DNA from: Halococcus sediminicola
GTDB taxonomy: Archaea > Halobacteriota > Halobacteria > Halobacteriales > Halococcaceae
Length of the DNA stretch: 64,000 nucleotides
Assembly (NCBI RefSeq): GCF_000755245.1
Contig: NZ_BBMP01000022.1
Coordinates: 124,001-188,000 of the forward strand
Reading direction: 5' to 3'
Part shown: positions 1,400 through 60,688 of the stretch, piece after piece
Layout: the number at the start of each line of letters is the position of its first letter
Numbering within the stretch: the first letter of the stretch is position 1
The notes under the pieces: generated by a model
Database searches by the model: none
The model's input: the letters and a program-made list of their open reading frames with translations, nothing else
What the model was told of the DNA's origin: nothing
Program-made: the position numbers and the translations under genes

Positions 1400-1700
1400 T
1401 ACCTTTTTACTTCGTCGGGTTCGCGCGAGGCGCGAACCACTCCTCGCAAAAAGCTACGCTAAAAACTTCCCGCTCGTTCGCTTCGCTCACTCCCGGTGAA
1501 CCCCGCTCACTTCGTTCGCGCGGACATCCTCCGCAAACCGTACAGCACCGCTGAAGCCCTCGGCGCGCGCTCACTTCGTTCGCTGCTCGCTTCGCTCGCG
1601 CACCTCGCCCTTCATCCACCAGGAGCGGCCACCGCAGCCACACAACCGCCACCGGCCGGCGGCAGCGCCGGCAAACAAATCCAGCAGTGAGCTCCAGTCG
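1400..1700 (+). repeat. 3' mosaic element, copy A (downstream of carS)
   Basis: This noncoding stretch holds, in the direction of carS: a T-tract (1404-1408), a perfect 9-bp hairpin with a GAG triloop (1418-1426 with 1430-1438), GCAAAAA (1446-1452), CTAAAAAC (1459-1466), a GGTGAACC block (from 1495), GCGCGGACATCC (1518-1529), GAAGCCCTC (1553-1561) and TCGCCCTTCATCC (1605-1617). The same blocks recur in copies B, C and D elsewhere in the window. In between are low-complexity TTCGCTCGCTTCG-like runs. Open frames crossing it have no recognisable product. The T-tract plus hairpin could terminate carS transcription. Confidence 0.75.
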
Positions 1701-18366: not shown

Positions 18367-18696
18367 CGCTGCTGTGACGGCTGCGGTGCAGTCGCGGTGG
18401 CGGTGCGGCCGCCGTGCGGGTGCGGTTCCTGGCGGATGAAGGGCGAACGAGCAACGCGAGTGAGGGCTTCTGCGGTCGGTGCGGAGGCAGGTGCGGAAAG
18501 TGCGGCATCCGCGCGAGTGAAACGAGCGCGGTTCACCGTGAGCGAACGAGCGGAGTCGTTCGAAAGACGCGAAGCGTCTTTCGTGATGACGAGAGAGCGT
18601 AGCTCTCTCGAACCACGAGTTGAGTGAGCGGGAATTTTTAGTCCAGGTTTTTGCAAGCGGGGGTCGCCGTAGGCGACCCTCCGCAGTAAAAAAGTG
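18367..18696 (-). repeat. 3' mosaic element, copy B (downstream of the SWIM gene)
   Basis: Read on the minus strand it starts right after the SWIM gene stop. It has a T-tract (18688-18693), an 8-bp triloop hairpin (18661-18668 with 18672-18679), GCAAAAACCTGGAC (18641-18654), a pair of triloop hairpins of 8 bp (18591-18598 with 18602-18609) and 9 bp (18562-18570 with 18574-18582), GGTGAACCGC (about 18528-18538), the GCATCCGCGCGA block (18505-18516), GAAGCCCTC (18462-18470), TTCGCCCTTCATCC (18434-18447) and a GC-rich tail with CCGCA repeats. The same blocks occur in copies A, C and D. No gene is seen in it. Confidence 0.75.
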
Positions 18697-18702
18697 GGTG
18701 TT

Positions 18703-29214: not shown

Positions 29215-29416
29215 GTCGTCGATGTCGTGCGGCTGCGGCCGCGGTGCGGCCCTCGGCGGATGAAGGGCGAGGCGCGCGGAGCGCGCCGAGGGCTTCGGCG
29301 GAGCGGTCGCGGTGCAGTTGTGGAGCGGTGCGGTGTTGGGGTCGCAGTGCGGTTGCGGTCTTTTTCCCAAGTTTTTGCGAGCGAGCGGCCGGTTAGGCCG
29401 CGAGTGATGCAAAAAG
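29215..29416 (-). repeat. 3' mosaic element, copy C (downstream of the thermosome gene)
   Basis: On the minus strand, directly after the thermosome stop: a T-tract (29411-29415), a 6-bp hairpin with a 5-nt loop (29385-29390 with 29396-29401), GCAAAAACTT (29369-29378), then GAAGCCCTC (29288-29296), a perfect 7-bp triloop hairpin (29271-29277 with 29281-29287) and TCGCCCTTCATCC (29258-29270). Shorter than copies B and D: it lacks the GGTGAACC and GCGCGGATGC blocks. No gene is seen. Confidence 0.72.
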
Positions 29417-29421
29417 TGGGG

Positions 29422-59745: not shown

Positions 59746-60393
59746 GTGCGAATCGCGCCCCATGCGTGGCGATACGCCGCTCCGATGTTCGCGCTCGCGC
59801 CGGTGGCGGCGCTGCTGTCGTCGATAGCCGGCGCGCTGGCCGTCGGGATGGGACTGGGCGCGCTCGCTTTCCATCGGGACCCCGAACGCGAGATCCCCTC
59901 CAAAGGTGTCCTCGCGCCGGCCGACGGTCGTGTGTCGGTCGTGCGCCGCGAGGGCGAGCGCCTGCGCGTCGGCATCTACATGGGAATCACCGACGTGCAC
60001 GTCAATCGCGCGCCGCTTTCGGGCACGGTCGAATCGGTGACGCACTCGCCGGGCGCGAACCGGCCGGCGTTCTCGAAAGAGTCGGACAAGAACGAGAAGG
60101 TCGAAATCGACTGCGGCGCGTTCTCGATCGTCCAGATCGCCGGCGCGTTCGCCCGGCGCATCCATCCGGCGGTCGAGTCGGGCGACCGGGTGGCGCGCGG
60201 CGAGCGCATCGGCCACATCAGTTTCGGGAGTCGCGTGGACGTACTCTTGCCGCCTGAATTCGACCGCACGGACCTCTCCATCGAGATGGACGAAACCGTG
60301 CGTGCCGGCGAGACGGTGCTGGCTGGCGGTGCGGCGGCGGTGGAGTCGGAGAGCGGTGCGGGGCGGTCCTTGGCGTCTCAGCGAACGGAGTGA
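59746..60393 (+). CDS. asd: Archaetidylserine decarboxylase (phosphatidylserine decarboxylase family)
   Basis: Pyruvoyl enzyme that makes archaetidylethanolamine. The 215-residue protein matches the short PSD-related form: two N-terminal membrane segments, FHRDPEREIPSKGVLAPADGRVSVV, IYMGITDVHVNRAPLSGTVES, RPAFSKESDKNEKVE, and the self-cleavage GS in ISFGSRVDVLLP. GTG 59746 is chosen from the position of CCTATC (about 59720) and the compact family start; ATG 59728 is possible. The C-terminal tail (SESGAGRSLASQRTE) seems to run into repeat DNA. Confidence 0.9.
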   Translation: MRIAPHAWRYAAPMFALAPVAALLSSIAGALAVGMGLGALAFHRDPEREIPSKGVLAPADGRVSVVRREGERLRVGIYMGITDVHVNRAPLSGTVESVTHSPGANRPAFSKESDKNEKVEIDCGAFSIVQIAGAFARRIHPAVESGDRVARGERIGHISFGSRVDVLLPPEFDRTDLSIEMDETVRAGETVLAGGAAAVESESGAGRSLASQRTE

Positions 60394-60683
60394 GCCGAGG
60401 CTCAGGAGAGCGAAGCTCTCCTAGCGGATGAAGGGCGAAGTCGTTCGAAACGGCTTCGCCGTTTCGTGATGACGAGAGAGTGAAGCTCTCTCGGACCACC
60501 GCGAGTGAAACGAGCGGCTGAGGGCTTCGACGGTGCGGTTGTGGTGTGGAAGCATCCGCGCGAACAGATATGAGTGCGGTTCACCGTGAGCGAGGCGAAG
60601 CCGAGCGAGCGGGTGTTTTTAGTCCAGGTTTTTGCGAGGAGTGGTGCGCGAGCGAAGCGAGCGCACCCGACGAGTGAAAAAGT
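60394..60683 (-). repeat. 3' mosaic element, copy D (downstream of the M50 protease gene)
   Basis: On the minus strand after the protease stop: a T-tract (60677-60681), a 7-bp outer stem (60643-60649 with 60661-60667), GCAAAAACCTGGAC (60622-60635), CTAAAAAC, GGTGAACCGC (about 60576-60586), GCGCGGATGC (about 60552-60562), GAAGCCCTC (60520-60528), two hairpins (60474-60480 with 60486-60492; 60447-60454 with 60458-60465), CTTCGCCCTTCATCCGC (about 60425-60440) and an 8-bp triloop hairpin (60404-60411 with 60415-60422). It has the most hairpins of the four copies. No gene is seen. Confidence 0.75.
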
Positions 60684-60688
60684 GGGTT

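Follow-up and report, generated by a model that had tools for sequence, protein, structure and literature searches.

The cassette that we analysed in the window (the whole stretch of DNA studied, 64,000 nucleotides) is a precisely bounded element of 54-66 bp with the layout TCGTT-hairpin-TGATGA-hairpin-AACCA. It is probably a non-autonomous, transposase-free mobile DNA element that has spread through the haloarchaea, with clean insertion between a G and a pyrimidine (G^Y) and a preference for hairpin tips. Comparison of filled and empty sites shows that the element is mobile and inserts cleanly; it has exact boundaries, varies in position and orientation, keeps its structure through paired changes, and is spread order-wide. 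An element found in nearly all haloarchaea is thereby defined by a consensus, exact boundaries and a target preference, and because the boundaries and the target are precise to the base, the movement of gene-free repeats becomes directly testable.

The cassette was first noticed in copies B and D of a larger repeat, where the initial annotation described two hairpins enclosed by constant flanks, with compensating changes in the inner stems. Every flank block quoted there was found in place: in copy B, GTCGTTCGAAA at 18555-18565, TTTCGTGATGACGAGAG at 18579-18595 and CTCTCTCGAACCAC at 18603-18616, and in copy D, the same blocks at 60440-60450, 60462-60478 and 60486-60499. The inner stems do compensate (GAAAGACGC/GCGTCTTTC in B versus GAAACGGC/GCCGTTTC in D), and the neighbourhoods were also correctly described, copy B adjoining GCGGTTCACCGTGAGCG (18526-18544) and copy D lying between GGATGAAGGGCGA (60426-60438) and GAGGGCTTC (from 60520). 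Copy B reads ...GAGCGGAG-TCGTT-CGAAAGACGCGAAGCGTCTTTCG-TGATGA-CGAGAGAGCGTAGCTCTCTCG-AACCA-CGAG... and copy D reads ...GGGCGAAG-TCGTT-CGAAACGGCTTCGCCGTTTCG-TGATGA-CGAGAGAGTGAAGCTCTCTCG-GACCA-CCGCG... (Table 1). The single-stranded DNA of both copies folds into two hairpins, with z = -4.9 to -5.5 relative to dinucleotide shuffles. These fold scores, together with the recurrence of the core genome-wide and across the haloarchaea, indicate that the cassette is not due to chance.

Table 1. Features of copies B and D of the element and of the host repeats, in window positions.
Feature	Position	Strand	Remark
Element copy B, 60 bp, TCGTT...AACCA	18556..18615	+	boundaries from empty sites of homologous copies
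Copy B hairpin 1, CGAAAGACGC-GAA-GCGTCTTTCG	18561..18583	+	
Copy B central linker TGATGA	18584..18589	+	
Copy B hairpin 2, CGAGAGAGC-GTA-GCTCTCTCG	18590..18610	+	
Copy B target, left side C[GGA]G	18551..18555	+	insertion after G18555; right side from C18616; basis: boundary rule
Element copy D, 58 bp, TCGTT...GACCA	60441..60498	+	
Copy D hairpin 1, CGAAACGGC-TTC-GCCGTTTCG	60446..60466	+	
Copy D central linker TGATGA	60467..60472	+	
Copy D hairpin 2, CGAGAGAG-TGAAG-CTCTCTCG	60473..60493	+	
Copy D target, left side C[GAA]G	60436..60440	+	insertion after G60440; right side from C60499; basis: sequence and motif rule
Host modular repeat of copy B, 3' intergenic module ending T5-AGTCCAGG-T5 ... A6-GTGGG	18403..18699	+	between convergent genes
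Host modular repeat of copy D	60372..60687	+	after psd-like gene 59746-60393
Different palindromic module in copy D, GCGTCTCAGCGAACGGAGTGAGCCGAGGCTCAGGAGAG...CTCTCCTAG	60372..60422	+	empty counterpart of the element insertion at C6:5774 (L005 vs L138)
Host-type modular repeat without element (copy C of the initial annotation)	29227..29420	+	
Host-type modular repeat without element (copy A of the initial annotation)	1446..1617	-	

The linkers of the element are near-invariant, and the stems are freely variable yet paired. Of the 148 copies collected, 145 have an exact TGATGA and 144 have AACCA or GACCA as the right end, an unpaired 3' CCA-like tail, while the left end is TCGTT in nearly all; the scan pattern included the central and left linkers, and their conservation in the scan set is in part by construction, but the right end, which lies outside the pattern, is still present in about 78 of 82 scan hits. 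The ends are inverted, TCGTTCGARA corresponding to the reverse complement TGGTTCGARA with one mismatch. The stems come from a varied pool, and the three-base loops are mostly GAA, TTC, GGA or TCC. Alignment of 24 copies of equal length showed 99.8% of the cells to be paired, and 47 cells had changed on both sides compared to 2 on one side. The two arms pair at 8.8 of 9 positions, relative to 6.4-6.6 when arms are dealt among elements, and over all copies the stem positions comprise 2233 Watson-Crick pairs, 13 G-T, 4 A-C and 11 other. Whole-hairpin replacement or correction of a DNA palindrome fits this all-or-none change of the stems better than slow RNA covariation does.

It was also found that the two hairpins of one element never have the same stem (0 of 125 elements, with 13.7 expected and 0 of 5000 shuffles as low). 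The same was true of unique hairpin pairs (0, with 14.2 expected), of database loci alone (0 of 101, with 12.8 expected), and of the most conservative set, consisting of unique stem pairs (0 of 46, with 3.5 expected and 128 of 5000 shuffles as low). Because like stems would pair across the element, either the formation of two hairpins is important or recombination removes equal stems, and the avoidance provides a separate line of evidence that hairpins which do not fold individually are lost.

In this genome, the covariance model identified at least 8 copies of the element, in four kinds of slot and in both orientations, and the core was present at six places genome-wide with no more than 1 mismatch. 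Most of these copies are located in larger modular intergenic repeats, a genome-wide family that includes the hosts of copies B and D and has the order GGATGAAGGGCGA, hairpin slot, GAGGGCTTC, GCATCCGCGCGA, hairpin slot, GCGGTTCACC, hairpin slot, T5-AGTCCAGG-T5, hairpin slot, A5-6, GTGGG. The element occupies the first host slot in copy D and at C21:44476, lies beside the GGTTCACC block in copy B, and is in the last host slot at C26:297659 and C7:135614 and, inverted, at C22:94957; at C6:5774 it is in another palindromic module. A constant position of the cassette in the other copies, which the initial annotation had named as evidence against a moving unit, was looked for, and the position was found to vary. 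The different slots that the annotation reported for B and D stand, and they are two different hairpins; the refinement needed is that both slots have in common a C[GNA]G hairpin tip.

The element is a haloarchaeal one. One genome per GTDB species was scanned for the exact core, with matches in at least 120 stretches, and haloarchaea accounted for 79 of the 80 matches listed, the single exception being without hairpins. With the covariance model, matches were obtained in 127 of 146 haloarchaeal genomes (116 of the 122 of good quality) and in 50 of 56 genera, the match counts covering both strands because the element is nearly symmetric. All 33 positive genomes in a sample of the phylum were from the haloarchaeal order, and there was no covariance-model match in any genome listed from outside it, 144 negative genomes being covered as a count. 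Within the genus of this genome, near-exact copies were present in 9 of 10 genomes and covariance-model matches in 10 of 10. Viral contigs gave no match to the element core.

Insertion was evaluated by joining the flanks of each copy at G^Y and comparing the product with all other loci. For many copies, the joined flanks match uninterrupted homologous DNA elsewhere, base for base over the junction. The filled L190 and the empty L210 agree at 90% over 247 bp, with the identical junction CCTTCGGAGG^CGGCCTGTCC. L184 is filled (GGCGTG^CTTCGGG) where L200 is empty; conversely, L184 has an empty site where L200 is filled, except for a gap of 3 bases where the flanks meet. The site CTCCACAGG^CGTT is filled in L207 and L265 and empty in L204, and further pairs are L202 versus L216 and L103 versus L070. 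An empty site is found in the window as well: C6:5774 (L005), filled as GAACAGAG^TGAGCC, corresponds to the empty GAACGGAG TGAGCC of the palindromic module that precedes copy D. No empty site for copy B itself was found at the orthologues of its upstream gene (L127, L128), which are followed by unrelated DNA. In L121, an acyl-CoA-synthetase-like gene may contain a further insertion. The element is inserted between G and C or T, with no loss of bases in most pairs. The initial annotation had proposed a search for both empty sites and target duplications, and the latter were absent from the empty sites, where the insertion is exactly G^Y. Because position and orientation differ among copies of the same genome and many copies have homologous empty sites, mobility of a very small structured element, as the annotation suggested, is the best reading.

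The target was examined at non-redundant sites, which have an invariant G at -1, C at -5 and G at -4 in about 75-80%, and preferentially C at +1. The target also includes the base that follows the element, in that a left flank of GCGNA is followed by C in 24 of 24 non-redundant sites and one of ACGNA by T in 4 of 5. Copies B (C[GGA]G^C) and D (C[GAA]G^C), and many others, are inserted one base 3' of a GNA triloop. For the CGNA class, the flanks are complementary at level 1 (X-Y of XCGNAG^Y) in 28 of 37 sites and again at level 4 in 25 of 37, each with 0 of 2000 shuffles as high, and levels 2 and 3 have G-A juxtapositions in 21 and 17 of the 37; the G-A-tolerant apex test was a version chosen after looking at the data and is the sole significant version, the strict Watson-Crick apex test being not significant. 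This pattern predicts that the CGNA class targets a hairpin in which tandem G-A pairs accompany a GNA triloop, the cut falling one base beyond the loop on its 3' side. Thermodynamic folding gave no separation between true and shuffled pairs of joined flanks because the flanks are G+C-rich repeats. About a third of the targets are without the CG-NN-G motif, and since these sites lack CG and the strict tests are not significant, the hairpin tip is a preference and not an absolute rule. Most copies are in palindromic repeats other than those of IS605-type elements or PATEs. In L245 (2800-3303), an element lies in frame in the zinc-finger region of a TnpB gene, adding ~21 residues and no stop codon, and a symmetric variant with a TGATCA centre and a GGACGA end is found in Haloquadratum J07HQW1 (L319, L321, L328), each time in the same kind of IS605-like site.

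In the mechanism that we propose, the identity of the element would reside in three short unpaired segments, TCGTT on the left, TGATGA in the middle and AACCA on the right, with two hairpins of interchangeable sequence held between them. Insertion is at a G-pyrimidine step, with a preference for steps whose G directly follows a GNA (or similar) triloop in the tip of a different hairpin, and this would account for the different slots that the cassette occupies in the larger modular repeats of the window. We infer that movement proceeds through folded DNA, either a single strand or a cruciform, and that a trans-acting enzyme cuts and joins it at the tips of hairpins; action of such an enzyme on folded DNA would explain the small size, the fixed linkers and free stems, the lack of duplication and the hairpin-tip preference. 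A broader proposal, which we offer tentatively, is that the element represents an order-wide class of gene-free mobile DNA that is recognised by its three linkers, the stems being replaceable, and that a host-encoded or other enzyme unrelated to known transposases inserts it at DNA hairpin tips, so that intergenic regions would grow as nested hairpins.

It is less likely that the cassette is a minimal IS200/IS605-type element or REP pair, consisting of a left and right end only and moved by a Y1 HUH transposase (TnpA or RAYT) in trans. The absence of target duplication, the hairpin near each end and the short guide-like segments beside each hairpin agree with this explanation, as do the common occurrence of Y1_Tnp proteins in the order (26 of 40 genomes) and the location of 9 of 115 elements within 300 bp of TnpB genes, compared to 2.7 for random positions, an enrichment of about threefold. 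However, Y1_Tnp had no match in 14 of the 40 genomes (of this genus or element-bearing), including the many-copy G093, G171, G081, G062 and G113, and whereas IS605 elements have a target of 4-5 bases, the only fixed base on the 5' side of the insertion here is one G. Furthermore, a search for an autonomous, transposase-bearing parent, in the form of a left half-element followed by other DNA, yielded only four-hairpin relatives and chance matches, with no transposase. The mobilising enzyme is probably not an IS200-type TnpA.

It is very improbable that the cassette has no dedicated movement and is shuffled among the larger modular intergenic repeats by gene conversion or homologous recombination. 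Although most copies of this genome are in such repeats, and some identical elements of the same genome have partly common flanks, the exact G^Y insertions are found in a range of unrelated surroundings, IS605-type ends and the reading frame of a TnpB gene among them, and position and orientation differ within the same type of repeat. The empty sites, uninterrupted at the base level, largely refute recombination as the source.

Slightly less probable still is that the cassette serves chiefly as an RNA or a regulatory element (a terminator, a processing signal or a small RNA) under selection, its mobility being secondary. The strict linkers, the paired stems and the many copies downstream of genes could be accounted for in this way, and the few G-T pairs outnumber A-C (13 versus 4). 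Nevertheless, nearly all stem changes involve both sides together, with ~1% wobble or mismatch, as would be expected of DNA palindromes; position and strand vary, one copy being inside a gene; and the window contained 0 Rfam matches at the gathering threshold. Other candidates were rejected on single features: integron attC sites (G^T cleavage, folded DNA) for a poor match to the GTTRRRY/RYYYAAC boxes, TGATGA as a kink-turn or box C/D motif because there is no D box, and a MITE because target-site duplication is absent.

Compared by description, the nearest relatives of this mobile element are the short mobile repeats of Haloquadratum walsbyi, SMR-A/SMR-B (HqIRS42, 43, 55; HqIRS40, 41), which are gene-free, have inverted ends, cause no duplication and insert into the palindromes of IS605-type elements and PATEs (PMC3119063). 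Their mobilisation was called 'enigmatic', and SMR-A is about 110 bp in length (PMC3119063). The window element is likewise too short for a transposase gene, with inverted terminal repeats and no target duplication, but it is a two-hairpin element of 54-66 bp with free stems and fixed linkers, it targets many palindromes besides those of IS605 elements and PATEs, and it is order-wide, whereas the SMRs were described in one species. Two-hairpin copies are present in a Haloquadratum genome, and other haloarchaea have four-hairpin relatives with the same TCGTT...AACCA ends, the complete ones being 105-113 bp, the size of SMR-A, to which they may correspond. In these relatives (L300, L303-L306, L310-L314), two extra hairpins are located at the central TGA/TGA linker. 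By description, the Haloquadratum repeats may be connected to an order-wide family, and no paper describing the element as such a family was found in the open library.

Likenesses to other small palindromic elements are more limited. REP elements and their dimers form GTAG- and CGTC-tagged superfamilies of small palindromes with unpaired end tags; the CGTC repeats have 3' CCA tails, are mostly inverted dimers with unlike partners preferred in several families, and have no known transposase (PMC3733652). The window element shares the small palindromes and an unpaired 3' CCA-like tail but has the tag TCGTT/AACCA in place of GTAG or CGTC, and it is always a double hairpin with a fixed TGATGA linker; archaea are mentioned in that paper in reference titles only (PMC3733652). 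Mitochondrial double-hairpin elements and GC clusters are mobile-looking palindromes of similar size that merge and shuffle, the commonest one of yeast being 42 bp (PMC4478555). The yeast clusters have short flanking direct repeats, AG and ACT (PMC4478555), in contrast to the window element, which has none; they belong to another domain of life, with no sequence relation shown. Haloarchaeal PATEs and IS200/IS605 elements (PMC3119063) also have near-terminal hairpins and no target duplication, but the window element is much smaller, has inverted ends, is without the 4-5 base left target and is not tied to TnpA.

The host repeats have features of their own. Their end (18635-18699, 60616-60687 and ~40 loci of this genome) has the form AGNNAGR-TTTTTG ... 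AAAAA-RGTNN, in which NN covaries between the two sides (CC/GG, GT/AC, GC/GC, CG/CG) and a G-A to A-G exchange lies beside the T tract. This end is often between convergent genes and looks like a bidirectional T-tract terminator or a structured DNA or RNA site. A palindromic module, CCGGAAGAC...GTCTTCCGAGC, interrupts the T-tract block within its AGTCC/AGG core in L143, L109 and L113. Downstream of psd (L138-L147), a GGATGAAGGGCG...CGAGGGCTTC module bounded by GCGG runs is present at orthologous sites in L139, L141 and L142 and absent from L140 and L147, and from this pattern it may also be mobile. The stop codon of the psd-like gene (60391-60393) lies inside a palindromic module, which supplies the last residues of the protein.
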